NCBI RefSeq assembly: GCF_900104645.1
Contig: NZ_FNWE01000002.1
Location: forward strand, 573,289-637,288
From: Alterileibacterium massiliense
GTDB lineage: Bacteria > Bacillota > Clostridia > Peptostreptococcales > Anaerovoracaceae
Length of the DNA stretch: 64,000 nucleotides
Direction of reading: 5' to 3'
Each line of letters opens with the position of its first letter. Position 1 is the first letter of the stretch. The notes below the pieces were generated by a model. That model was not told the DNA's origin, ran no database searches, and worked only from the letters and a program-made list of their open reading frames with translations. Below, in pieces: positions 14,526 through 29,168 of this stretch. Both the position numbers and the translations under genes were made by a program.

Positions 14526-17500
14526 ATGGATTTTGTGAGAATTGCAAATGTAAAACTAAGGAGGGCAGTGGTTTTAATCTTGACGATTATGATGATTATG
14601 ACCTCCTTGCCACTCAATGTTTTTGCGGGTTCAGATTTTAATTATGACAAGATACCCGATGAGAAGGCAAAGTTCTTAAATAAGGAGCCTGCTGACAATC
14701 CCGCTGATTTTGGAAAGGATCCGGCTACTAAGGAAGAAGCAAATGCTCAAATTAAGAATTCTGCTATGCCTATGCTTTACAATATTAAGGCTGAATACAA
14801 GGCAAATAAGGATGATGAACTCGTTCATCTTTATAATCCTTATGAGGCAACTGTAGGAGATGATCAATATACTTATAAGGATTACAAGGGTAATGTTCGT
14901 AATGTTTTGACTGAGGCTGATAAGAAAAAGATAAAGAAGATAGTAGATCTCCCTGAGATAGACGGATATACCAGCCCTACGAAATCTACGGATATTAATT
15001 ACGACTATGTAAAGAAATACGCACAAGACATAGGAAAGATGAAGCCAGGGACCTACAAATGGATTGGAGTCAAACCATACATTTATGAACCTATCGAGAG
15101 CACTGTTAGGGTAAAACATATCTTCCAAGACTTATATGATAAGAACAAATATGGTCTTAAAGATGGAGAAACTGAAATAAGATATACAACGGAAACAGGG
15201 CTTGTAGGTTCTGAGATTACTGTGCATCCACTTAATGAAAGAGATAGAAAGGGATATATCCCTGAAAAAACAGTAATCAAGACCAGAGTACCTGATAATA
15301 GAGATGACATAATTATCGAATATAGGTATAACAGGGACTCGTTTGCAATTAAGTATGATATGCAGGGTGGAAGTGATATTCCTTCACAGAAGCTTTACTA
15401 TGGACAGACAATACCTAATCTGAATGTAAAACCGAAGAAAGTCGGCGGTATATTTGAAGGCTGGATGTCGGATACGGACTTAAATTACAAAGATGCTAGT
15501 GGCAATATTAAAACCTTGCCTAAAAATACAAAGTTCGACATGAAGGATTTCAAAGATGGAATCAAGGATGCTATGCCTGCTCGCGACATTAAATTTACGG
15601 CTTTATGGAAAGACGAGCCTAAGGCAAATTACACAATTCAATTCTGGACAGAGAAGGCTGACTCGGTAGGATATGATTACATAGGAGCTAAGATTGTTAA
15701 AGATGCTGATACTGGGACTAGACCTGATCTATCACTTATGATGCCTTCTGGAATTAAATTTCCAGAAATAGATAAGTCTTTAACCGAAGATGCTAAAGTA
15801 AAAGAGTTAAATAAATACTATGTAAGAAATGAAGACAAGATAATTAAAGAAAATACAGAGAAGGTTAAGCAAGATGACGGGACAAATCTTGCTATGTCTA
15901 AGAAGGTTCAGCCTGACGGTAGAACCACATATAATATCTACTACGATCGCCAGACATATACAATGCTATTTGAAAAATTCTGTATAGATGAACCTGAGGC
16001 AGGTTTCCCAGCTAAAGAAGCAAAGATGGTACTTCCTGATGGAACAAAATATGATTCTACTAAGGACGTGAACAATCCATATAAATTTAAAGCTAAGTTT
16101 GGCGAGAGAATGAAAAAATGGCCTAACGATATGTGGCTCATAGGGGAAGGTGGAATTGACTTTGATCCAAATATGAGTTTTATAGGCTGGCAGTTAAATT
16201 CAGAAAATAATGGAAATCTCGACCAAAGTCTATATCTTGACACTCCGCCGTACTGGCTAACATCAAAGGATTTTATAGATAGAGATTTTACTGAACTAGA
16301 CCCAGCTGTAACGCCTGCAACTCACTCAACTTCAACAGGAGAAAAATTACCTGAAAGAACTATTTCTCTTGGCCCTTGTTCAAGTGCAGAGTATCAATTC
16401 GCTATATATTATATGGAATATTTGTTTGAGGGCATCGATGGTGCGTTACACTACGATCCTGATATGTCATATACCAAAATTGACACAATCGTTCCATACG
16501 AATATCCTTCTCCGGGTATTGTAGGATTTAAGCCTAAGTATGAGGGAATTAATCCTGTAGAAGATGCGTTACTGCGCCCTGAAATGAAAACAGGATATAC
16601 GGAGGATCTCTCGAAAGAGTCTTTTGATGAGCTTGGCAATAAATTAGATGAATATGAAAAAAATAGAAAAAATAATGAGAAGTCATTCTTTGATCCTATT
16701 GCTCAGAATGGAATAAATGGTGTTCCTTTCAAAGATATTCCTAAATACCGCTTTGCATTTACATATGAGCGTGAGAAATACAAGATATATCTTGATACGG
16801 ATTCGTCAGATATAAATGAACAATCTGAGCTTGCAAAGAAAAAGCTTGCAAGTGGTAAAGATGCAACTGTTTCTGATGTATACTATGATATGCCTCTAAG
16901 AAAACTAAATCTTGATGAAAAATATAAGCTCACTGAGGCAGATAGACCTGCCAATGTGCCTGAAGACTTTGTATTCAAGGGATGGGCAATGGACCCTCAG
17001 GGCACCAAATTGATTAAAGATACCATTGAGCCAGCTGAAAAACTTGAGGCTGAAATTGCTGATAAGTATGAAGAACTTGCTAAGAATTCTAAGGATAAAG
17101 ATAAGAAATTCAAAATACAGAATGAAATAAAAGAATTAAAGGCTAAGCTTGGCGATGCTGACGCTAATATGCCTAATTATGATATAGTTCTTTATGCAAA
17201 ATGGGGTGAGCCTGATAAGAACTATAAGGTGAAATTCGATCCTAATGGCGGAACACTCAAGGACCTAGATCCTCTTGATATTGCTGCATTTAAAGATGGC
17301 GAAATGATTAAAACATCTGTAGATAATCTTACTTATTCACTTCCTAAGAAGCTTGGTAACGAGGGAGATGTACAGGTATTTAGTGTTAAGAGCAGAATGA
17401 GCATTAAATATCCACCTGAGCCTAAGAGAAAGGGATATGATTTCCTAGGCTGGGAACTTGTAAGGCATAATAAAGACGGCTCAGTAGACACATCATTTGT

Positions 17501-20500
17501 TGATAAATATGATGTCCCTGAACTATATGCTTTTGGAAATGAAGTGGTTGAAGATAGCTATCTAAAGGCTATATGGGTTAAGAATGACCTAGTTGATATT
17601 CCGGCAATTCATATTTTCCTCGATGAGAATTTCAAAGAGAAGAAAGATGAGAGAAAACCTTTAACTGTTCCTAATAGAAGAGTTGGAGAATATGCTGAAG
17701 CTATTGCTAAATATCAGGGTCAAACTAAGCTGACAATTCCTAAGGCTGAATGGGAGAAATTAGAGAGGAAGTCAAGCGAGTACAAAGAATATGTAGATAA
17801 AACCGGTAGACATAATACATATAGTCAGGAATTAAAGGTTGAACCAAAGACCCTTAAGAAAGCTGGCAAGGAAGTAGCTAATCCTAATGTTGAAAATAAT
17901 ATATTCAAATTCTTCTATAGAGATTTTACGAAGAGACATTATAAGGTTAATTATTTAAGCACAACTGAAAAAGATGCTGAAAAACTGCCTGCAATAGGTA
18001 ATATGCCAGCTGGTAGCTTCAAGATAATAGATACTGAAGAAGTTACAAGCGGATGCACGGATTATGATTCAGTAAATTATAGAGAGATACCGGGCTGGAA
18101 GATAATAAGCACGCCACAAAGACAGCTTTTCTATGATATTAATGCTGATAATGAAATGGAAGGAATTAATGGAATTAAATCAGACGAGGTTAATTTCTAT
18201 TATCAAGATGTTCGTGTAATTAAGCGTAAAACAAGTGATGCTATAACTCCTGACGGATACCACAGAGTTGTATTCAAAGCTGATAGGGATGGCTCATTTG
18301 GAGTAGATGCTGATGGAAAGAAGATTAAAGAAGTAGTATATGATGTAATTGACGGTCTTGAGTTTAAAAATATTGAGGTTCCACCAGAGCAAAATATTGG
18401 CGGAACGCTAAAGGCACCAGTAATTACACCAGATCCTAATGCTAAGTTTGTTGAATGGAATGATTCAAGACTGCTTGATAAAAATACAGTTATAAGACAG
18501 GATTATACATTTACTGCTAAGTTTAAGCCTATCAGTGATGTAATCGAGATAAAGACTGGTAAAGAAAAGGTTCAAGATTATTTCGTAGATGTTTATGTCG
18601 ATACTACTGATAGGGCTGACGCGGATGTTAATGATAACCAATACACCGGTGATAAGAAATTGCATTTCAAGGTCAATCCGGAAAAACAGGTTGTAATTCC
18701 AGTAAAAGAACCTAAGGGTGCAGTTATAAAGGATAAGAATGGAAATCCTATTACAAATGCCTTTGGAATTAAACAGCGTTGGCAGTTTAAGGAATGGCAG
18801 GTTGAAAACAAGGATAAGGTATGGACTAAGGGTGAAAAGATAGAAGATAAGTTCACTGATAAAGTCACAACAATCGTTGCTAAATACAATTTGAAAGGGA
18901 CACCTATAGATCCTATTCTTACAGCAAATACCATTCCTGCATTTGAATCATCTAAGGACGGTCAAGGCGGGTGGATTAATAACTTCGTGCCTACTAAGGA
19001 TAAGTACGATGAAGCTCTTAAAGATATAATGAAGAAGGATGGTTATAAGTCATATAAGATAATAACCTCTGATAATGAGATCTATAATAATCTAAAGGAA
19101 GATGGAAAGCCTGTAGCTGACGACCAGCCAAGGACATTTAATATCAAGGCTGAGGTAAGCTTTGAAGATGGTAGAAAGACTATAGTAAATATTCCTATAA
19201 AGGTATTTAAGAATGTTTATCGCAGTCTAAATGATGGAGAAAAGCCTGATGTTGTCAAGAATAATGAGGAGCTAAAGGATTATGTAAAAGTTACAGTAAA
19301 TCCTACAGATTTGGCAAAGGATAAGACTAAGAAGGTTTATTATGTAAATCCTAAGGCTAAGGTTATAATACCTGAGAAAGACCCTACGCCAATTGATAAG
19401 CATACTTTTAAAGGCTGGTATTATATAGATAAGACAAAGATTACAGAGGATAATCCTACAGGAAGAGTGGAGGTTGACTTATCTAAGTTACAAAATATTC
19501 CTAAGGACACAGAGATAATCGCTTCTTATGAAACTCCTGCTACGCCGATTATTCCTCTTAAGCCTGAGGCAAAGCAGATAGTTAAGAATATCGGAGATAC
19601 TCTGACTGTTGATGATTATGAAAAGGCTATAACTCCGCCTAAGGACAAAAATGGCAAAGAGCTGAGAAAGATTAAGGCTGTAAAGATTGTTAATCCTATT
19701 GATAAAAGGGTAACAACAAAGGAATCAGGTAATTTCAAAGAGTTAATTGAAGTTATATATGAAGATGGTGCAACATATAAGATTAATGTTGATGTTAAAG
19801 TTCTTCCTGATTATGTAGAGCAGACCGGAAATGACAAGCCTGATGTTCCTGATAATTATGTAAAGGTAGTATTTAAGCCTACGGATAAGGCAGAAGATAG
19901 CAAAGAAGTTATCTACTGGGTAAATCCTAAGAAAGAAGTAGAGCTACCTATTACAGAACCTAAAGGAAAGAAAGCGGTTATAGTAGACGGAAGAAAGACC
20001 GATTATGTATTTAAGGAGTGGCACTTTGAAGCTGATGATAAAGTATTCGATGTGAAAGATAAGCATCAGTTCAAGGATGAGACAGTATTTATAGCAAAAT
20101 ATAAGAAGGTCATAGATGCGGGAATAATTACTCCAGTACCTAATATCAAATCTACCGGAATAACTGTAACTGAGTCACTCAAGGATGGAGATAAGTGGAT
20201 AAATAATTTTATTCCTAGTGAAGATGATTTAAGAAAAGGCATCAAGATTGAGAACAAAGATGGCAAACTTGAGGGAATTCCTGACGGAGCTAAAGTCGAA
20301 TTTGGTGACGGTAATACTGACACATGGAAGAAATATGATGACCTTGAAAAGGTACTCTACGAAAAGCTCAAGGAGAAGGATGATGGAAATAATCCAAGCC
20401 GTAAAGAGAGCATAAAAGCAAAGGTAACAATAGATGGAGTCTCTAAGATTGTTGAAATTCCTATAAATGTTAATAAGAACATTTATGAGGCTAAGACCTC

Positions 20501-21962
20501 TGGTGATAAACCTAATTATGTTCCTGATGGATTTGTTAAGGTAGAGCTTGATCCAACAAAGGACGCGGTAGATTCACAAAAGAAATTCTACTATGTAAAT
20601 CCTAAGGCTTTAGTAAAAATCCCAGGCAAAGATCCTTCGCCTGCAACTGATAAGGTATTTACAGGCTGGGTACTTAAGGAAGGGAATAATGATGAGAAGC
20701 CATACAGCTTGCCTGACAGATATAAATTTACAGAGAATGAAAATGTAATAAAGGCTGTCTTCGTACCTGATGTAGTAGAGCAAACAGGTAAGGACAAGCC
20801 AAATGTTCCTGATTACTTCGTTCAGGTAATTGTAGATTATACTAATAAGGCAAAGCTAAAGGACGGAGAAAAGTCAGTTCGCACATTCTGGGTAAATCCA
20901 AATAAGGAAGTTACGATACTTGACAAGGACCCTGTGCCTGAAGATAATTGGACCTTTGAAAAGTGGACCAAGGGCGATGAAAAAATTAATATGACAAGCC
21001 CTAATAAGTTCACAGAAAAGGTTACAAAGGTTACAGCAAGATACTCACGAGAGATGACACCTATCGAAGATCTTGATCCTAAGATTAGCGAAGTCGAAAC
21101 ATATGTAGGAAAGACGCCTGAAAATAATGACTACATCAAAAAACTTGTTCCGCCTAAGGGTAAGGAGATAGATAAGATAAAAGTTATCACAGTTCCTGAT
21201 GTAACAAAGCCTGGTAAGACAAAGACTACGGTAGAAATTATATATAAAGATGGCTCTGGAACAACAGTAGACATTCCTGTAATCGTTAAGGATAATATCT
21301 ATCCTGCAGATGGAAATGGCAATAGAACGCCTGATACACCTGATAATTATGTTAAAGTTGTAGTAGATCCAACTGACCATGCTAAGGATTCAAAGAAGAA
21401 GATTTTCTATGTAAATCCTAAGGTTGAAATAGGACTACAGATAGACGATCCTGAGGGACTTGAACACTGGAACTTCCTAAATTGGAAAGTGGATAATGAT
21501 ACATTTGATACCAAAGCAAATCATAAATTTGATAAGGATACTACAATTTATGCGGTTTGGAATAAGGATCCTAACTTAAAAGTTAAGGATATTACAATCA
21601 CAAAGGGAGACGACTTAGATTTAAAAACTCTGATTGTTAAGGCTGACGACCAAGAGGACGGAAATCTAATTGATAAGGTTGAGATTGTTTCCACAGGTGG
21701 ATTTGATAAAGACAAACTTGGAAAATATGAGATTGTCTTTAGATTAACCGATAAGAATGGTGCTGTAACAGAAGCAAGGGCATTTGTAACAGTAGCTTCT
21801 AAGCCTATCAAGCCGGACGGAAGTACTTCGACAAATGGTGGTAAAAATTCACCAACTACAGGCGATAGCACTTCTAATGGATTCTTATATCTAGGCACCT
21901 TGGGAATAGCTCTGCTCCTCGCTATCCTAGGCAAAAGAAGAAAAAATGATAGCAATAATTAG
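14526..21962 (+). CDS. Giant repeat-rich, wall-anchored surface protein (2478 aa)
   Basis: This is a secreted surface protein, probably an adhesin or wall-structure protein. A signal peptide spans residues 1-34 (cut after NVFA). Throughout there are InlB B-repeat-like modules, recognisable by F-x-G/E-W motifs (FEGWMSD, FKGWAMD, FLGWELV, FKGWYYI) followed by a YAKW or AKY strand. From about residue 1300 to 2330 these alternate with Rib-like domains of the YEDGATYKINVDVKV type. Six copies of a VNPK-centred core start near 18671, 19341, 19919, 20593, 20890 and 21409. A DUF5011/Ig-like domain lies at about 2355-2425. The C terminus has SPTTG (2442-2446), a hydrophobic stretch and KRRK, a sortase signal with S in place of L. 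No sortase gene is in the window. Confidence 0.88.
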   Translation: MDFVRIANVKLRRAVVLILTIMMIMTSLPLNVFAGSDFNYDKIPDEKAKFLNKEPADNPADFGKDPATKEEANAQIKNSAMPMLYNIKAEYKANKDDELVHLYNPYEATVGDDQYTYKDYKGNVRNVLTEADKKKIKKIVDLPEIDGYTSPTKSTDINYDYVKKYAQDIGKMKPGTYKWIGVKPYIYEPIESTVRVKHIFQDLYDKNKYGLKDGETEIRYTTETGLVGSEITVHPLNERDRKGYIPEKTVIKTRVPDNRDDIIIEYRYNRDSFAIKYDMQGGSDIPSQKLYYGQTIPNLNVKPKKVGGIFEGWMSDTDLNYKDASGNIKTLPKNTKFDMKDFKDGIKDAMPARDIKFTALWKDEPKANYTIQFWTEKADSVGYDYIGAKIVKDADTGTRPDLSLMMPSGIKFPEIDKSLTEDAKVKELNKYYVRNEDKIIKENTEKVKQDDGTNLAMSKKVQPDGRTTYNIYYDRQTYTMLFEKFCIDEPEAGFPAKEAKMVLPDGTKYDSTKDVNNPYKFKAKFGERMKKWPNDMWLIGEGGIDFDPNMSFIGWQLNSENNGNLDQSLYLDTPPYWLTSKDFIDRDFTELDPAVTPATHSTSTGEKLPERTISLGPCSSAEYQFAIYYMEYLFEGIDGALHYDPDMSYTKIDTIVPYEYPSPGIVGFKPKYEGINPVEDALLRPEMKTGYTEDLSKESFDELGNKLDEYEKNRKNNEKSFFDPIAQNGINGVPFKDIPKYRFAFTYEREKYKIYLDTDSSDINEQSELAKKKLASGKDATVSDVYYDMPLRKLNLDEKYKLTEADRPANVPEDFVFKGWAMDPQGTKLIKDTIEPAEKLEAEIADKYEELAKNSKDKDKKFKIQNEIKELKAKLGDADANMPNYDIVLYAKWGEPDKNYKVKFDPNGGTLKDLDPLDIAAFKDGEMIKTSVDNLTYSLPKKLGNEGDVQVFSVKSRMSIKYPPEPKRKGYDFLGWELVRHNKDGSVDTSFVDKYDVPELYAFGNEVVEDSYLKAIWVKNDLVDIPAIHIFLDENFKEKKDERKPLTVPNRRVGEYAEAIAKYQGQTKLTIPKAEWEKLERKSSEYKEYVDKTGRHNTYSQELKVEPKTLKKAGKEVANPNVENNIFKFFYRDFTKRHYKVNYLSTTEKDAEKLPAIGNMPAGSFKIIDTEEVTSGCTDYDSVNYREIPGWKIISTPQRQLFYDINADNEMEGINGIKSDEVNFYYQDVRVIKRKTSDAITPDGYHRVVFKADRDGSFGVDADGKKIKEVVYDVIDGLEFKNIEVPPEQNIGGTLKAPVITPDPNAKFVEWNDSRLLDKNTVIRQDYTFTAKFKPISDVIEIKTGKEKVQDYFVDVYVDTTDRADADVNDNQYTGDKKLHFKVNPEKQVVIPVKEPKGAVIKDKNGNPITNAFGIKQRWQFKEWQVENKDKVWTKGEKIEDKFTDKVTTIVAKYNLKGTPIDPILTANTIPAFESSKDGQGGWINNFVPTKDKYDEALKDIMKKDGYKSYKIITSDNEIYNNLKEDGKPVADDQPRTFNIKAEVSFEDGRKTIVNIPIKVFKNVYRSLNDGEKPDVVKNNEELKDYVKVTVNPTDLAKDKTKKVYYVNPKAKVIIPEKDPTPIDKHTFKGWYYIDKTKITEDNPTGRVEVDLSKLQNIPKDTEIIASYETPATPIIPLKPEAKQIVKNIGDTLTVDDYEKAITPPKDKNGKELRKIKAVKIVNPIDKRVTTKESGNFKELIEVIYEDGATYKINVDVKVLPDYVEQTGNDKPDVPDNYVKVVFKPTDKAEDSKEVIYWVNPKKEVELPITEPKGKKAVIVDGRKTDYVFKEWHFEADDKVFDVKDKHQFKDETVFIAKYKKVIDAGIITPVPNIKSTGITVTESLKDGDKWINNFIPSEDDLRKGIKIENKDGKLEGIPDGAKVEFGDGNTDTWKKYDDLEKVLYEKLKEKDDGNNPSRKESIKAKVTIDGVSKIVEIPINVNKNIYEAKTSGDKPNYVPDGFVKVELDPTKDAVDSQKKFYYVNPKALVKIPGKDPSPATDKVFTGWVLKEGNNDEKPYSLPDRYKFTENENVIKAVFVPDVVEQTGKDKPNVPDYFVQVIVDYTNKAKLKDGEKSVRTFWVNPNKEVTILDKDPVPEDNWTFEKWTKGDEKINMTSPNKFTEKVTKVTARYSREMTPIEDLDPKISEVETYVGKTPENNDYIKKLVPPKGKEIDKIKVITVPDVTKPGKTKTTVEIIYKDGSGTTVDIPVIVKDNIYPADGNGNRTPDTPDNYVKVVVDPTDHAKDSKKKIFYVNPKVEIGLQIDDPEGLEHWNFLNWKVDNDTFDTKANHKFDKDTTIYAVWNKDPNLKVKDITITKGDDLDLKTLIVKADDQEDGNLIDKVEIVSTGGFDKDKLGKYEIVFRLTDKNGAVTEARAFVTVASKPIKPDGSTSTNGGKNSPTTGDSTSNGFLYLGTLGIALLLAILGKRRKNDSNN

Positions 21963-22792: not shown

Positions 22793-22896
22793 ATATAAAA
22801 ATAAGATAAAAATTTTAAAATACAATCTAAAACAATAAATTCATGTAACAGCCCATAAAATATATTATAATCATAATATAAAAGGAGATGGCTAAA

Positions 22897-23637
22897 ATGA
22901 TTTCTTATAAAAATGTGTCAATGGAATATCCTGAAAGTGGAAAGGTTCTTGATAATCTCAATTTTAATATTGAAAAGGGAGAATTTTTTGTAATTGTTGG
23001 ACCTAGTGGAAGTGGAAAGACGACAAGTTTAAAACTCATTAATAGATTGATTGAACAGACAGACGGAGATATTTTTTTTAATAATAAAAAATTGAAAGAT
23101 TATAATTTGAGGGAACTTAGGCTTAAAATTGGTTATGTTTTACAAGAAATTGCACTTTTTCCTAATCTTACTGTTTTTGAAAACATCTCACTTATACCTG
23201 AAATGAAAAAAATGGATAGAGAAATAATAGATGAAAAAATAGATTTTCTTTTAAATAAAGTAGGACTTGAGCCAAATAAATATAAGGATAGATTTCCAGA
23301 AGAATTATCAGGAGGAGAAAAGCAAAGGGTTGGAATATTAAGAGCGATAATTTCGGGTCCTGAAATTTTACTTATGGACGAACCATTTTCTGCACTAGAT
23401 CCAATAAGTAGGATTAATCTTCAGGATTTGATAAAAGAACTTCATGATGAGTATAAGATAACAACCGTATTTGTCACACATGACATGAGTGAAGCTATAA
23501 AGCTGGCAGATAGAATCTGCTTTATGAAAGAGGGTAAGGTAATTCAGATTGCTACTCCTGAAGAAATAGTTAAAAATCCTGAGAACAAATTTGTTAGCAA
23601 GTTCTTAGGTAATGAAAGTGAGATAGGCTATGAATGA
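22897..23637 (+). CDS. ABC transporter ATPase, OpuCA/EgtV type
   Basis: This is the energising subunit of a quaternary-amine-type importer. Walker A is GPSGSGKTT, signature LSGGEKQRVG, Walker B EILLMDEPFSALDP and the switch histidine VFVTHDMSEA. At 246 residues it lacks the C-terminal CBS pair found in classic osmosensing OpuCA. An ATG at 22888 directly abuts AAAGGAG and is too close; ATG 22897 gives a proper 9-nt spacing and the start MISYKNVSMEYP. It overlaps the downstream permease/binding protein by 8 nt. The substrate may be a betaine or choline-type compound or ergothioneine; see the next gene. Confidence 0.88.
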   Translation: MISYKNVSMEYPESGKVLDNLNFNIEKGEFFVIVGPSGSGKTTSLKLINRLIEQTDGDIFFNNKKLKDYNLRELRLKIGYVLQEIALFPNLTVFENISLIPEMKKMDREIIDEKIDFLLNKVGLEPNKYKDRFPEELSGGEKQRVGILRAIISGPEILLMDEPFSALDPISRINLQDLIKELHDEYKITTVFVTHDMSEAIKLADRICFMKEGKVIQIATPEEIVKNPENKFVSKFLGNESEIGYE

Positions 23638-25153
23638 TTTGATTAGAACATTTACAGAGAGAAAATCGGAGTGGTTTATAGCTCTATTTGAGCATCTTCA
23701 AATTTCAATGCTATCCCTAGTTATCGCAGTTATAATTGCTGTACCTTTGGCAATATTTTTTACAAATAAGAAAAGGGTTAATGAATTTATACTCCAGATA
23801 ACAGGCATTTTTCAGACCATACCCTCCCTTGCACTCCTAGGTCTTTTTATACCATTAGTTGGAATAGGCAAGCTTCCTGCAGTTATAGCTCTGATAGTTT
23901 ATGCAATATTTCCAATATATCAGGGAACTTCAACCGGTTTTTCTGAGATTGACCCTTCGCTTGAAGAAGCAGGAACAGCATTTGGCATGACTGAATGGGA
24001 GAAATTAAAAAAATATAAGCTCTCCCTTGCCATGCCCGTTATCATGTCTGGAGTGAGAACCTCAGCAATCATGATTATTGGAACTGCAACACTTGCAGCC
24101 CTAGTTGGAGCAGGAGGGCTTGGCTCTTTTATTCTACTGGGTATCGATAGAAATAATTCATCATTAATACTTATCGGTGCTATTTCATCAGCCTTGCTTG
24201 CAATCATATTTGGAATACTAATAAGGATATTACAAAATAAAAAGCCGAGGATAATTTTTATTTCAATTCTCATAGTAATATCATTAACAATGGCAAGCCT
24301 TATTCCCTTTGCCAGAATGGGGCAGAATAAAATAGTTATAGCAGGAAAGCTTGGTGCAGAGCCAGAAATTATTATCAATATGTATAAAGAACTTATAGAA
24401 GATGAGATGGATATTGATGTTGAAATTAAGCCCAATTTTGGGAAAACAAGTTTTTTATATGAAGCACTAAAGTCAAGGAGCATCGATATATATCCTGAAT
24501 ATACGGGCACGGTAATAAGTTCACTTTTAAAAGAAAATACAAAACTTAATTCAAATGACGAGAAAGAAGTATATAGGATTGCAAGAGATAAGATATTTGA
24601 ACAGGACAAACTCGTCTATCTAAAACCCAGTAAATTTCAAAACACATATGCACTAGCAGTGAGAAAAGATTATGCCATAGATAATAATCTTGAAAAAATC
24701 ACAGATTTAAAAAAAGTAGAAAATAAAGCAATTGCGGGATTTACTTTAGAATTTAATGATAGAGAAGATGGAAATCTAGGATTAAAAAAAGACTATGATT
24801 TAAATCTAGATGTTAAGACAATGGAACCAGCTCTTAGATATAGGGCAATATCAAATGGGTCAATTGATTTAACAGATGTTTATTCAACTGATAGTCAAAT
24901 AATAACAAATGATTTAAAGGTATTAATAGATGACAGAAATCTATTTCCGCCATATCAGGTTGCACCGATAATGCGTGAGGATACGCTCATCAAATATCCG
25001 AGATTAAAAGAGGTTTTGTCAAAACTAAGTGGCAGGATAAGCTCAGAAGAGATGGCTAAGATGAATTATGAAGTCGATGTAAATGGTAAATCTGCGAATG
25101 AGGTTGCAAGGGAATATCTAATAAAACAGAAGCTAATTAAAAAGTTTAGGTAA
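23630..25153 (+). CDS. Fused ABC permease and substrate-binding protein (OpuCB-CC / EgtU type)
   Basis: One polypeptide of 507 residues combines an integral-membrane permease (about residues 1-200, with the EAA-like loop EEAGTAFGMTEWEKLKKY) and, after a further membrane helix at about 206-226, an extracellular ligand-binding domain (about 232-507) starting IVIAGKLGAEPEIIINMY. The motif IDIYPEYTGT is typical of choline/betaine/ergothioneine-binding domains. This architecture and size match the ergothioneine importer EgtU as well as fused osmolyte systems such as BusAB-like proteins, so the ligand is open. It is translationally coupled to the ATPase. Its last codons are part of a 39-bp tandem repeat. 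Confidence 0.87.
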   Translation: MNDLIRTFTERKSEWFIALFEHLQISMLSLVIAVIIAVPLAIFFTNKKRVNEFILQITGIFQTIPSLALLGLFIPLVGIGKLPAVIALIVYAIFPIYQGTSTGFSEIDPSLEEAGTAFGMTEWEKLKKYKLSLAMPVIMSGVRTSAIMIIGTATLAALVGAGGLGSFILLGIDRNNSSLILIGAISSALLAIIFGILIRILQNKKPRIIFISILIVISLTMASLIPFARMGQNKIVIAGKLGAEPEIIINMYKELIEDEMDIDVEIKPNFGKTSFLYEALKSRSIDIYPEYTGTVISSLLKENTKLNSNDEKEVYRIARDKIFEQDKLVYLKPSKFQNTYALAVRKDYAIDNNLEKITDLKKVENKAIAGFTLEFNDREDGNLGLKKDYDLNLDVKTMEPALRYRAISNGSIDLTDVYSTDSQIITNDLKVLIDDRNLFPPYQVAPIMREDTLIKYPRLKEVLSKLSGRISSEEMAKMNYEVDVNGKSANEVAREYLIKQKLIKKFR

Positions 25154-25245: not shown

Positions 25246-25249
25246 ATGA

Positions 25250-25276
25250 TAAGAGAGCTTGCTCTCTTATTTTTTT
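25250..25276 (+). terminator. Intrinsic terminator of the importer operon
   Basis: TAAGAGAGC / GCTCTCTTA stem followed by seven T residues. Confidence 0.85.
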
Positions 25277-25387
25277 AAAAGAGTAAATTGTATTGAAAAA
25301 GGTACATAAATTGGATATGATTAGGGCAAAGATTAAGATATAGGAAAATATAGAAAAAGTTAGTGTTTTTTAGAAAAGGAGTGCATT

Positions 25388-27442
25388 ATGGATAAGCAAT
25401 TAGAGCCTTTATTTACACCATGGAAGATTGGAAATTGTGAAATCAAAAATCGCTTCGTTTTAACATCCATGGGTGGAACCAATATTTTTGGCTGGATGGA
25501 AAAAAATCATTTCGACAAAGCTGGAGCTGAATTTCTTATGGAGGTTGCAAAGAACAATGCAGGGCTTCTTTTGCCAGGCTGCCAACCGATATATAATCCG
25601 ATGTTTGGGCAGTGGCTTTATAAAAATGATCAGATGTATAAGGATCTTGCAAAGTGGATGCCTGAATTTCATAAGACAGGAGCAAAGCTATTTATTCAAT
25701 TAACTGCCGGCTTTGGTCGCTCTTTTACTATAAGCAAGATGATGGAAACGCTTTATACGAATAAATTCTTGAGATTTATATCAAAACCCGTAATGGATCT
25801 CGACAAGATAACTGCAGCACCTAGCCCATCTCCTAACCGCTGGTCTGACAAGGTGCCATCAAGAGAGATGACAAAAGAAGAAATTTATGAGTTTGTTCTT
25901 GCTTTTGCGAAGACAGCAAAGAAGTTAAAAGAAGCTGGAGTCGATGGTGTTGAAATTCATGCGGTCCATGAGGGATACCTACTTGACCAATTCACACTGA
26001 AATATATAAATAAGAGAGATGACGAGTATGGAGGCTCATTTGAAAATCGATACCGTTTTGCTGTAGACATTGTAAAAGCGATAAAAAAGGTCTGCGGAAA
26101 GGATTTCCCTGTGTCGCTTAGGTATAGCGTTATTTCAAAGACAAAAGGATTTAGACAGGGAGCACTACCGGGTGAAGATTATATCGAAGCAGGTCGTGAT
26201 ATGGAGGAATCCGAGAAGGCTGTAAAATATTTAGAGGAAGCCGGATATGATATGCTTAACTGCGACAATGGTACATATGACGCTTGGTACTGGGCACACC
26301 CACCAATCTATATGCCTGAGAATTGCAATCTTAATGATGTAGAACATATAAGTAAATTTGTGGATATTCCGGTAGTATGTGCAGGAAGAATGGACCCTTA
26401 CACGGCAGCTAAGTCAATTGAATCTGGAAAACTTGACGGAGCAGGTTTTGCTAGAAATTTCCTCGCTGATCAGGAATGGATAACAAAACTCAAAGAAGAT
26501 AGGAAGGAAGATATTAGACCTTGCATTTTATGCCATAATGGTTGCTTTAATATGTGCCATTATAAAGGTGTACCTAACGACCAGCCACTTGAAGATAGCT
26601 TGCATCTTGCGAGATGTGCTGTCAATGCAGAAACCATGCAGACTGACAAGCATTATATTAAAAAGACGGATACTCCTAAGAAGGTAATTATAATAGGAGC
26701 AGGCATCGGTGGAATGGAAGTGGCGAGAGTTCTTAAATTGAGAGGTCATGAGCCAGTAATTTATGAGAAAACAGGCTTGCTTGGTGGAACCTTTATTGCT
26801 GCAAGCAGTGAAAGCTATAAGGGAAAACTTAGGGATTTGCTTAAATGGTATGAGCGTCAGATGAAGGAAATGGATATAGAGATTCATCTAAATGAGGAGA
26901 TTACAGACCTTTCAAGGTTTGACGGAATGGAAATAGTTATCGCAACAGGAGCAAAACCTCGCGTCCTAAGCAAGATAAAAGGACATGAAAAGATGATTGA
27001 AGCGTGTGAATACCTGCTTGGCAAGGAAGTAGGAGAAAAGGTTGCAATTATAGGGGGAGGGCTTACAGGCTGTGAAATTGCTTACGAACTTGCACTTCAG
27101 GGCAAAAAACCAATAATCGTTGAGATGAAGGATGACTTAATTTCTCAGACGGGAGTATGCCTTGCAAACAGCTCATATCTTCGTGAATGGTTTGAATTAA
27201 ACAAAATCCCAGTATACCTTGAGACAGGGCTTAAAGAAGTTCAGGATAATAAAATTATTTGCCAAGATAAAAATGGGAAAGATTTTTCAATCGACTGCGA
27301 TTCTGTTATAAGCTCAACAGGATATGTTCCAAATCCTTTAGTTAAAGATTCAAAGGAAGCAAAGTTGGTCGGAGATTGTAAAAAAGTTGGAAATTTAAGG
27401 ACGGTAATTTGGGAAGCCTACGAAGTGGCAATGAAAATTTAG
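25388..27442 (+). CDS. Old-yellow-enzyme / enoate reductase-like Fe-S flavoprotein
   Basis: This 684-residue enzyme has the layout of 2,4-dienoyl-CoA reductase and 2-enoate reductase: an FMN-binding TIM barrel (about 1-360, with GVDGVEIHAVHEGYLLDQF), a 4Fe-4S site, and an FAD/NAD(P)H half with Rossmann motifs IIIGAGIGGMEVA (near 435) and VAIIGGGLTGCEIA (near 555). Fe-S cysteines C379, C382 and C386 are clear; the fourth is probably the Cys in LARCAVN near 410, giving a longer last spacing than in FadH. It reduces an activated C=C bond with NAD(P)H in relatives. The aconitase X genes follow 8 nt later, so its substrate is probably the product of that dehydratase. Confidence 0.88.
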   Translation: MDKQLEPLFTPWKIGNCEIKNRFVLTSMGGTNIFGWMEKNHFDKAGAEFLMEVAKNNAGLLLPGCQPIYNPMFGQWLYKNDQMYKDLAKWMPEFHKTGAKLFIQLTAGFGRSFTISKMMETLYTNKFLRFISKPVMDLDKITAAPSPSPNRWSDKVPSREMTKEEIYEFVLAFAKTAKKLKEAGVDGVEIHAVHEGYLLDQFTLKYINKRDDEYGGSFENRYRFAVDIVKAIKKVCGKDFPVSLRYSVISKTKGFRQGALPGEDYIEAGRDMEESEKAVKYLEEAGYDMLNCDNGTYDAWYWAHPPIYMPENCNLNDVEHISKFVDIPVVCAGRMDPYTAAKSIESGKLDGAGFARNFLADQEWITKLKEDRKEDIRPCILCHNGCFNMCHYKGVPNDQPLEDSLHLARCAVNAETMQTDKHYIKKTDTPKKVIIIGAGIGGMEVARVLKLRGHEPVIYEKTGLLGGTFIAASSESYKGKLRDLLKWYERQMKEMDIEIHLNEEITDLSRFDGMEIVIATGAKPRVLSKIKGHEKMIEACEYLLGKEVGEKVAIIGGGLTGCEIAYELALQGKKPIIVEMKDDLISQTGVCLANSSYLREWFELNKIPVYLETGLKEVQDNKIICQDKNGKDFSIDCDSVISSTGYVPNPLVKDSKEAKLVGDCKKVGNLRTVIWEAYEVAMKI

Positions 27443-27450
27443 GAGGAGCT

Positions 27451-28725
27451 ATGAATTTAACTGATGAGCAAAGAAAAATATTGAATGGAAGCCAAGGCGA
27501 GATTATGGCAAAGGTTATGGAAACGATGATGAGATATGGAGAGCTTTTCGGTGCGGATTCAATGGTTGAAATTACAGGAAAGTACAATCATCTTGTAACT
27601 TCCTTTGGACTTAAGGGAATTGCAGCCGTTTATGAGCTTATGGATAAATTGATTGAAGCAGGCATATCTTCATCGCAAAAGTTTTCAATGGATCCAAGAC
27701 CTCTTGACCCAAATGTTCCATCTAATTTTCTGCAAGATTTCGTCTTTAAGAAGATTATGTATACCAGGCAGGATAGTTACGAAAAGCAGCTGAGAAAACT
27801 TGGAGCTTTGAGTGATGATGCCTATACCTGCACCTGTTATATGGACGAGGTCGGAAATGTGCCAAAGGAGGGCGATGTCCTTTCTTGGGCAGAGTCATCT
27901 GCGGTCGTATATGCGAACTCGGTCTTAGGTGCTAGATGCAATCGAAATTCTGGAATAATTGACCTTATGGGCTCAATACTTGGATATGTTCCTAAGTTCG
28001 GTCTTATCACTGATGAGGGGAGAAAGGCTAAGTGGATTGTAGAAATAAAAACCAAGAAAAAGCCTGAGGCACAGCTCCTCGGCTCTGCAATAGGAATGAA
28101 GGTCATGGAAGATGTTCCATATATCATTGGACTTGATAAATGGCTAAAGGTATTAGATGATGATGCAAAGACCTATCTTAAAGACTTCGGTGCGGCAACT
28201 GCATCAAATGGCTCTGTAGGACTTTATCATATAGAAAATCTGACACCTGAAGCTAAAAAGCAGGGAAGAGATTTGATAAATAAAGATGCTAAGGTATATG
28301 TAATTGATGATGCTGAGCTAAAAAGGGTATATGATAACTATCCTATAATGTGGAAAAAGACGAATGCAAAACCTAAGATGTGCTTTATGGGCTGTCCTCA
28401 TATGAGCATATCACAGCTCAAAGACTGGGCAAAAAAGATAGATTTATCACTTAAAGAAAACAATTTAAAAAAGGTAACAATTCCAACTGTATTTACAGCA
28501 GCACCTCAGGTTCTTGATAAATTTAGAGGCACTGAAGAATTTGAGATTTTGGATAATGCGGGAGTGATTTTATCCTATATTTGCCCGCTTATGTATATGA
28601 ATAATCCTCTATGTGCTAGAATGCCCGTAATAACTTCAAGCAATAAGCTCAGGACATATACAACAGCAAGGTATTATACAGATGAGGAGATATTGAAACA
28701 GATTACAGGAGGTAGTAAGTTATGA
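27451..28725 (+). CDS. Aconitase X large (catalytic) subunit
   Basis: AcnX (DUF521) enzymes are Fe-S dehydratases; characterised members are cis-3-hydroxy-L-proline dehydratase in bacteria and phosphomevalonate dehydratase in archaea. The family blocks are present: CTCYMDEVGNVP near residue 127, SWAESSAVVYANSVLGARCN, MCFMGCPHMSISQLKDW, and the C-terminal ICPLMYMNNPLCARMPVITS with cluster-type cysteines. The start is ATG 27451, fixed by AGGAGG at 27441-27446; longer in-frame starts would overlap the reductase gene. 424 residues. The small subunit overlaps by 4 nt. The substrate here is unknown; no proline racemase or hydroxyproline gene is nearby. Confidence 0.88.
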   Translation: MNLTDEQRKILNGSQGEIMAKVMETMMRYGELFGADSMVEITGKYNHLVTSFGLKGIAAVYELMDKLIEAGISSSQKFSMDPRPLDPNVPSNFLQDFVFKKIMYTRQDSYEKQLRKLGALSDDAYTCTCYMDEVGNVPKEGDVLSWAESSAVVYANSVLGARCNRNSGIIDLMGSILGYVPKFGLITDEGRKAKWIVEIKTKKKPEAQLLGSAIGMKVMEDVPYIIGLDKWLKVLDDDAKTYLKDFGAATASNGSVGLYHIENLTPEAKKQGRDLINKDAKVYVIDDAELKRVYDNYPIMWKKTNAKPKMCFMGCPHMSISQLKDWAKKIDLSLKENNLKKVTIPTVFTAAPQVLDKFRGTEEFEILDNAGVILSYICPLMYMNNPLCARMPVITSSNKLRTYTTARYYTDEEILKQITGGSKL

Positions 28726-29168
28726 AAACTTTTCAGGGAAGAGTAGTCGCAAAAGGTAAGGTAACTGCACCTGCACTTGTTTCGCACCAGGGTCTTAACA
28801 CGCTAGCATCATTTCAGAAAGCATTGCAATTCGGAGATAAAGACGCAACCTGCGGAGATCAGGATAATAAGGATTTATTTGGGAAAAAGATGGCAGGAAA
28901 AGCCCTATGCCTACCGAGGACGATAGGCTCTACAACAGGCGGACTTGTAATTTACTGTGCCTGCTCATTAAAGAGGCAACCGGCGTGCATGCTTTTTTCA
29001 GAGCCAATTGATTCGCTTGCAGCAGCAGGGGCAATTTTATCAGATGTTTGGCTTGATGATGTATCGATGCCGGTCATAGATTCACTTGGTGAGGAATTTC
29101 TGAGCTATGTCAAAGACGATATGGAAATCATGGTAGAAGATGGAGGAGTTGTTAAAGTTAAGGGATAA
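28722..29168 (+). CDS. Aconitase X small subunit (swivel domain, DUF126)
   Basis: This 148-residue swivelling-domain partner of the large subunit completes the active site. The hallmark serine loop is LPRTIGSTTGGLVIY near residues 64-78, and the opening FQGRVVAKGKVTAPALVS matches the family start. Its ATG overlaps the large-subunit stop (ATGA), so the two are made in equal amounts. It is the last gene of the operon; 14 nt further on the convergent ABC permease gene ends, with no terminator visible between them. Confidence 0.88.
   Translation: MKTFQGRVVAKGKVTAPALVSHQGLNTLASFQKALQFGDKDATCGDQDNKDLFGKKMAGKALCLPRTIGSTTGGLVIYCACSLKRQPACMLFSEPIDSLAAAGAILSDVWLDDVSMPVIDSLGEEFLSYVKDDMEIMVEDGGVVKVKG

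Follow-up and report, generated by a model that had tools for sequence, protein, structure and literature searches.

An operon joining an old yellow enzyme-type reductase to aconitase X in Alterileibacterium massiliense, a probable coenzyme A-independent dehydroxylation module

In a 64,000-nucleotide stretch of the Alterileibacterium massiliense genome (contig NZ_FNWE01000002.1; hereafter, the window), positions 25388-29168 of the + strand carry an operon of three genes, encoding an old yellow enzyme (OYE)-type flavoenzyme and the large and small subunits of aconitase X (AcnX). We consider it probable that this operon is a two-enzyme, coenzyme A (CoA)-independent module which strips the β-hydroxyl group from a small carboxylic acid, probably as an electron sink. 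Its main features are listed here by position and strand.

25388..27442, + strand: OYE-type flavoenzyme, 684 aa, predicted enoate (ene) reductase
27451..28725, + strand: aconitase-X large subunit, 424 aa, predicted [4Fe-4S] β-hydroxy-acid dehydratase
27691..27693, + strand: codon of Asp81, at the position of TkAcnX Asn79; Asp in 97/97 clade rows
28722..29168, + strand: aconitase-X small subunit (swivel domain), 148 aa, predicted catalytic base Ser70, motif GSTTGG

We infer the reaction, its direction and its role as an electron sink as follows. The large and small AcnX subunits would together hold one [4Fe-4S] cluster, the free iron of which would bind the substrate hydroxyl, while Ser70 of the small subunit would take the α-proton and water would be expelled to leave an α,β-unsaturated acid. 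The reductase, which would carry flavin mononucleotide (FMN), a 4Fe-4S cluster and flavin adenine dinucleotide (FAD), would then use electrons from NAD(P)H to reduce the double bond, yielding the saturated acid. Enoate reduction would pull the dehydration step, and NAD(P)H from fermentation would be reoxidised. The same dehydrate-then-reduce logic had been put forward by a first-pass annotation made from the letters of the window, and the present analysis supports it.

The gene identities given in that annotation were borne out by Pfam and fold matches. The AcnX large subunit matched PF04412 with 305.6 bits (cut-off 31.5) and the small subunit matched AcnX_swivel_put PF01989 with 46.2 bits (cut-off 27), while the AlphaFold model of the large subunit (predicted local distance difference test, pLDDT, 93) had TkAcnX 7cnr as its best match in the PDB (E 9e-28, template modelling score 0.79/0.87), with the Agrobacterium AcnX second. 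Both domains, the AcnX fold, the catalytic Ser base and the Glu/Ser/Lys/Tyr core place the two proteins in the aconitase X family. The clade was aligned with TkAcnX and AtAcnX, and residue roles were taken from PMC8184944. By this alignment, the window AcnX has cluster cysteines Cys127, Cys315 and Cys378 and catalytic residues Glu148, Ser149, Lys399 and Tyr403. The retained TkAcnX positions are Cys110, Cys283 and Cys342 ([4Fe-4S]-type), Glu129, Ser130, Ser131, Lys361 and Tyr365, together with Ser62-Thr63 of the small subunit.

The residues that define the substrates of the known enzymes are changed. According to PMC8184944, Asp203 of AtAcnX binds the amine and Asn79 of TkAcnX binds the phosphate of phosphomevalonate. 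In the window AcnX, Asp203, Ile206 and Trp35 of AtAcnX are replaced by Val, Phe and Leu, Cys stands at the Ser449 position, and at the four hydroxyproline-type positions, where the window has Leu, Thr, Val and Phe, only one residue is kept. The phosphate site of TkAcnX is likewise lost, Gly48-Val49-Ser50, Asn53 and Asn79 having become Thr-Ser-Phe, Lys and Asp. As the landmark residues of both known AcnX enzymes are altered, neither known substrate fits. Val49, Thr50, Ser51, Asp81 and Arg401 are invariant in 97/97 clade rows (the window and 96 distinct sequences, after removal of 17 duplicates from 113), as is the Val at the amine-binding Asp position, and the TkAcnX Ser50 position is usually Phe. 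Among the 113 clade open reading frames (ORFs), the motif DPRP was found in 95, DPKP in 17 and DPQP in 1, and SNKLRTY in 113/113. The outgroup sequence (L110) has Asn at the Asp81 position and does not have the SNKLRTY form, so these two changes mark only the inner clade. The residues of the pocket (Asp81, Thr50, Ser51, small-subunit Thr72 and perhaps Arg401) speak for a distal group that is polar, and that may be cationic or hydroxylated, and against a phosphate. The model places Arg401 on a short helix, with Lys399 and Tyr403 on either side, and the residue may point out of the pocket.

In a 43-row AcnX tree, a branch with 100/100 support set off the 26 rows of the OYE-associated clade (the window, gut and deeper loci, Rhodococcus L142 and the outgroup L110). 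The six hydroxyproline-motif rows were likewise set off by a branch of their own (100/100 by the group table; 99/99 at the fork of the six), and TkAcnX belonged to neither group. The bootstrap had still to settle fully, and both AtAcnX and TkAcnX sit on long branches. By sequence, the window AcnX thus groups in a clade distinct from both the cis-3-hydroxyproline and the phosphomevalonate dehydratases, and the tree and residues together answer the placement check proposed in the first-pass annotation. The bacterial AcnX types IIc-IIf are described in PMC8184944 as having neither landmark residue set and awaiting study, and the window clade may be one of them. In the papers found, only two AcnX reactions are assigned, cis-3-hydroxyproline and phosphomevalonate dehydration. 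A literature search that covered no preprints and few subscription papers turned up no publication in which an ene reductase is paired with AcnX, which is not proof of absence; the suggestion that the pathway is undescribed is likely correct.

The 684-aa reductase has an FMN domain (8-374), the cysteines C379, C382, C386 and C410, the presumed 4Fe-4S ligands, and a FAD/NAD(P)H domain (431-653), with matches to PF00724 (168.7 bits) and PF07992 (120 bits). In an alignment of 18 reductases, C379, C386 and C410 were invariant and C382 nearly so. The OYE barrel, four cysteines and pyridine nucleotide domain assign it to the FMN/4Fe-4S/FAD OYE and enoate reductases, and we predict that it is an enoate (ene) reductase, reducing free enoates at the expense of NAD(P)H. 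The top fold matches of its AlphaFold model (pLDDT 89) were 2-naphthoyl-CoA reductase and 2,4-dienoyl-CoA reductase, with the histamine and trimethylamine dehydrogenases next. It aligns over its whole length, in the same domain order, with BaiCD (NF041087, 333.7 bits, below the curated cut-off of 825) and with the long form of bilirubin reductase (NF045599, 329.4 bits, below the cut-off of 750). Unlike BaiCD, bilirubin reductase and 2-enoate reductase, it belongs to a subfamily that often accompanies AcnX.

The conservation of the gene pair, a check that the first-pass annotation had called for, was surveyed in a scan of one genome per species, in which at least 592 stretches matched and at least 583 encoded a relative, many of them maybe distant AcnX. 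The 80 nearest loci were the best 80 of at least 583 (70-77% identity by the scan table), and their titles included Lachnospiraceae, Oscillospiraceae, Mogibacterium, Collinsella massiliensis and many Clostridia without a name, frequently sampled from animal guts. A same-strand OYE gene (29-80% identity) lay within 600 nucleotides of AcnX in 60 of these 80 loci, with 17 lacking one and 3 cut by a contig end, and the small subunit adjoined the large one in 79. Under the same 600-nucleotide rule, 19 further clade loci gave 11 with OYE, 6 without and 2 cut; when one of the 6 (L148) was read by ORF, an OYE gene was seen about 30 nucleotides downstream. None of 16 distant AcnX loci, of which 2 were truncated by contig ends, had an adjacent OYE. 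As the pair is conserved, chance is excluded as the source of the OYE-AcnX arrangement. Among neighbors outside the window, 10 were scanned with Pfam and 5 with NCBIfam, and the remaining names were given by eye. Three deeper members (L107, L132 and L133) have a PAS/sigma54-type regulator with OYE and AcnX (family scan for L107 only), deeper members of another family combine AcnX with an OYE of 28-31% identity, and the outgroup L110 (39%) also has an OYE.

Split pairs were searched for in the genomes of 10 of the 20 loci without OYE or cut (8/17 and 2/3; L011, L018, L029, L032, L047, L049, L056, L067, L073 and L075), as well as in two OYE-bearing genomes (L024 and L060) and the Rhodococcus plasmid. 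In 8 of the 10 genomes without an adjacent OYE, an OYE of about 54-78% identity was present elsewhere, so the two genes occur together even when separated. In the order of Faecalicatena orotica (survey centered on G380, 246 genomes), AcnX (E<=1e-60) was found in 6 genomes, OYE (E<=1e-180) in 10 and both in 4 (Fisher one-sided P 2e-5; 3e-4 minus the center genome). Two AcnX genomes lack the usual OYE: in G857 (L192) a different OYE type adjoins AcnX, and in G844 (L191) AcnX lies at a contig end.

Several observations weigh against the proposed module. In the same order, 6/246 genomes (6 of the 10 with OYE, at >=51% identity) have no detected AcnX, and 4 of these 6 carry an OYE 78-79% identical to that of the window. 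The OYE is therefore not dedicated to AcnX everywhere and may have another substrate source or be a generalist. The claim of a pairing thus stands as regards its conservation, but not as an exclusive one. A close OYE was missing in 2 of the 10 genomes searched for split pairs (none in L032; only 34% in L029). Some genomes hold several paralogues of this OYE type, so part of the adjacency could reflect inheritance and not selection. No OYE match was obtained on the plasmid that carries the Rhodococcus AcnX of this clade, the chromosome not having been searched. Plain enoates are poor substrates for many OYEs, and no transporter was fixed beside the operon among the loci viewed.

The view that OYE and AcnX are mere neighbors with no common pathway would be consistent with the six OYE genomes without AcnX and with the otherwise variable flanks. 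We hold it to be quite improbable, given the adjacency in 60/80 loci, the co-occurrence of split pairs and the replacement of the partner by another OYE type. In a 35-row OYE tree made by a quick method, the AcnX-adjacent reductases fell into three groups, and the group of the window included OYEs that do not adjoin AcnX. Two gut loci (L076 and L192) have an OYE of the deeper-lineage group of L108/L110 and an AcnX of the gut clade, a mismatch from which at least one partner exchange follows. At a further locus (L193, 3977-8648; genome G768, order of Faecalicatena orotica), AcnX overlaps a gene for a membrane-type protein, which had no family match, followed by FrdA/SdhA-like (PF00890, PF02910) and FrdB-like (PF13085) genes. 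The flavoprotein keeps FHPT, RGEGG, HxxMGG and RLGGNS, presumably active-site motifs, and the usual OYE is present elsewhere in the genome. At this one locus, a different double-bond reductase stands behind AcnX, which fits dehydration followed by reduction.

With clade members defined by at least 56% identity, the AcnX clade was found in 5/299 genomes of a phylum sample and 4/61 of a set of relatives (own genome counted in both). By order, it was found in 6/246 genomes around G380 (Faecalicatena orotica, itself counted), 6/17 around G167 and 3/22 around G176. In Actinomycetota the count was 1/296, which was the center genome of the survey itself. The AcnX cassette is a patchy accessory trait among Clostridia.

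A third AcnX clade with a conserved redox partner offers a testable path to a third AcnX reaction and predicts CoA-free use of hydroxy acids as electron acceptors by fermenters. Tentatively, and at slightly less than even chances, we propose a third functional AcnX class of CoA-independent reductive dehydroxylation, in which an enoate would serve as electron acceptor and the reductase would be interchangeable (several OYE lineages, and the fumarate-reductase-like complex in one bacterium of the gut-rich order), carried as a cassette by fermenting Clostridia. In its boldest form, the proposal would have gut bacteria convert an abundant compound of host or diet, such as carnitine, by this so far unrecognized route. 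If the substrate is such a compound, the genes of gut bacteria annotated today as aconitase X/DUF126 would serve to mark its conversion.

Of the more specific alternatives, the least unlikely is that the substrate is a dicarboxylic or branched β-hydroxy acid (malate enantiomers, citramalate, 3-hydroxy-3-methylglutarate or similar), which would be converted into a succinate- or glutarate-type acid. The fumarate-reductase-like genes that AcnX overlaps at L193, with their flavoprotein motifs kept, and the invariant Arg401 (97/97) point this way, and citramalate and 3-hydroxy-3-methylglutarate have the β-methyl-β-hydroxy center of mevalonate. However, L193 is a single locus, the modeled Arg401 may face away from the pocket, and Asp81 would repel a carboxylate.

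It is rather improbable, in our judgment, that the substrate is free carnitine, which AcnX would dehydrate to crotonobetaine and the OYE would reduce to γ-butyrobetaine without CoA. Carnitine is an acyclic β-hydroxy acid with a cation where phosphomevalonate carries its phosphate, which would suit the replacement of Asn79 by Asp in 97/97 clade rows and the usual Phe at the Ser50 position. In the window, the next upstream genes encode an OpuAC osmoprotectant-type ATP-binding cassette (ABC) transporter, and general osmolyte carriers would remove the need for a dedicated one. Yet this transporter was unmatched at the other 80 loci and a terminator-like hairpin intervenes, no carnitine gene was recognized in the annotated Rhodococcus stretch, and neither Arg401 nor the fumarate-reductase-like partner at L193 is suggestive of a cation.

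We give little credence to hydroxyproline catabolism, in which AcnX would dehydrate a 3-hydroxyproline isomer and the OYE would replace pyrroline-2-carboxylate reductase in forming proline. The bacterial AcnX enzymes characterized in the papers found (PMC5144071, PMC8184944) dehydrate hydroxyproline, and the window shares with them the AcnX fold, the catalytic core and small-subunit Thr72. In one deeper member (L107), a proline-racemase-family gene converges on the operon (541 bits against a cut-off of 556), while its relatives L132 and L133 have none. On the other hand, the window clade stands apart from the six motif rows in the tree and has lost Asp203, Ile206 and Trp35, and the product would tautomerize to an imine, an odd substrate for an OYE. 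The home assembly (1,450,823 bases, 2 contigs, 89.5% complete, one AcnX) contained neither proline racemase PF05544 nor OCD/mu-crystallin reductase PF02423, other pyrroline-2-carboxylate reductase families not having been searched; the absence of these two known AcnX partner families agrees with the first-pass annotation. Of five distant AcnX with the hydroxyproline motif, read by eye, four adjoin such genes: a proline-racemase-like gene in L115, L118 and L121 and a mu-crystallin-like gene in L118, L119 and L121, with neither in view in L124.

Equally doubtful is a role in converting aryl β-hydroxypropionates, such as 3-hydroxy-3-(3-hydroxyphenyl)propionate, into cinnamates that would then be reduced. 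Cinnamates are reduced by enoate reductases of this family. The Rhodococcus opacus PD630 plasmid AcnX (L142 15001-16730), which is 48.7% identical and of the same clade (motifs HVVTSMG and DPRP; HLVTSFG and DPRP in the window), lies in an aerobic aromatic-degradation region, among genes for a 3-carboxyethylcatechol dioxygenase, a flavin monooxygenase, hydrolases and the end steps of meta-cleavage. However, this AcnX gene is transcribed divergently from a LysR gene, with about 5.5 kb separating it from the dioxygenase; two other enzymes, an LLM-class flavin enzyme and a cysteine hydrolase, are encoded nearer by, and the pocket is polar. An amino-acid-like substrate is a further candidate, to which proline-racemase-like, dipeptidase-like and amino-acid-transporter neighbors point.

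An isoprenoid role, through modified mevalonate as in archaea, is very hard to credit: although the archaeal enzyme is the best sequence (148.7 bits) and fold (7cnr) match, and the type IIb phosphomevalonate dehydratases (TkAcnX 7cnr/7cns and Aeropyrum pernix) likewise have two subunits, the three cluster cysteines and the catalytic core, the window enzyme has lost the phosphate site, belongs to a separate clade and is partnered by an ene reductase rather than a decarboxylase, and that reductase would destroy the intermediate.

Deducing the substrate from gene context was rejected, since the neighbors are contradictory and none was seen repeating across lineages. They include MarR (L008, L014, L066), a PanE-like dehydrogenase (L017, L022), an OPT transporter with a PqqD-like protein (L033, L043), an amino-acid ABC transporter with LysA (L002), a xanthine/uracil permease (L135) and a phosphoribosyltransferase (L134), and Mogibacterium-type loci have C69-type dipeptidase and D-serine ammonia-lyase-like genes. 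No fixed third gene was seen beside the OYE-AcnX pair, no consistent OYE-replacing gene at the 13 OYE-less loci read, and no fixed partner at the OYE loci of the 8 genomes with a split pair. In G167-type loci, chemoreceptor-like genes are divergent from the cassette on its upstream side (L108, L145, L146 and L148; in two pieces in L147), and a sigma54-PAS-type regulator stands before the cassette in L110 as well as in L107, L132 and L133; these neighbors suggest an external, catabolic substrate.

The tight packing noted in the first-pass annotation was confirmed, with an 8-nucleotide spacer between the OYE and AcnX large-subunit genes (27443-27450) and a 4-nucleotide ATGA overlap between the two AcnX ORFs (28722-28725). 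A purine-rich Shine-Dalgarno-like stretch precedes all three starts (AAAAGGAG at 25374-25381, AGGAGG at 27441-27446 and AGGAGG at 28707-28712). The program-made ORF list starts the large subunit at TTG 27409; ATG 27451 was preferred because it better matches the ribosome site and the homologues. Two candidate signals lie upstream.

25248..25271, + strand: terminator-like hairpin, 10 pairs, loop 4, then a T run, between the osmoprotectant-type transporter genes and the operon
25293..25321, + strand: sigma-70-like promoter candidate TTGAAA-17-TATGAT, consensus match only

In all, 4 terminator-like sites were found against 2.6 +/- 1.6 expected in shuffles, so that support for the site at 25248-25271 is weak, and 9 sigma-70-like sites against 13.5 expected; neither kind of site clearly exceeds the shuffles. 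The upstream transporter genes (22888-25153; an ATPase and a fused permease/OpuAC binding protein of the osmoprotectant type) end before the operon. As a part of the system they were not supported, as a Blast search with the permease/binding protein matched nothing at E 1e-10 among the ORFs of 80 other loci and their flanks, and the hairpin lies between. Further upstream, the ORF list has a 2478-aa repetitive surface-type protein with a C-terminal sorting-signal-like tail (14526-21962).

Other settings of the two enzymes, most with names given by eye, were seen during the survey. OYE homologues of 78-79% identity lie beside patatin-like and FIST-domain-like genes in L180-L183, whereas the OYEs of L184 (also 78-79%), L189 and L190 lie beside other genes. 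The genomes of L180, L181, L182, L184, L189 and L190 gave no AcnX match, and that of L183 has AcnX elsewhere. Does the reductase have a second role at loci of the L180-L184 type? Distant AcnX with the motif H[SM]PG (L111 3794-5137, L112 4284-9137 and L122) lie near UbiD-like (L111), UbiX-like (L112), RraA-like and aldehyde-ferredoxin-oxidoreductase-like genes, and may belong to a bacterial pathway of dehydration followed by decarboxylation, as in archaea. Another distant AcnX pair (L123 4045-10395), amid urocanate hydratase-, imidazolonepropionase- and amidohydrolase-like genes, is possibly histidine-related. On a Paroceanicella profunda plasmid (L144 4987-9688), a distant AcnX pair follows a dihydroxy-acid dehydratase and overlaps an annotated FAD-dependent oxidoreductase, a non-OYE pairing.

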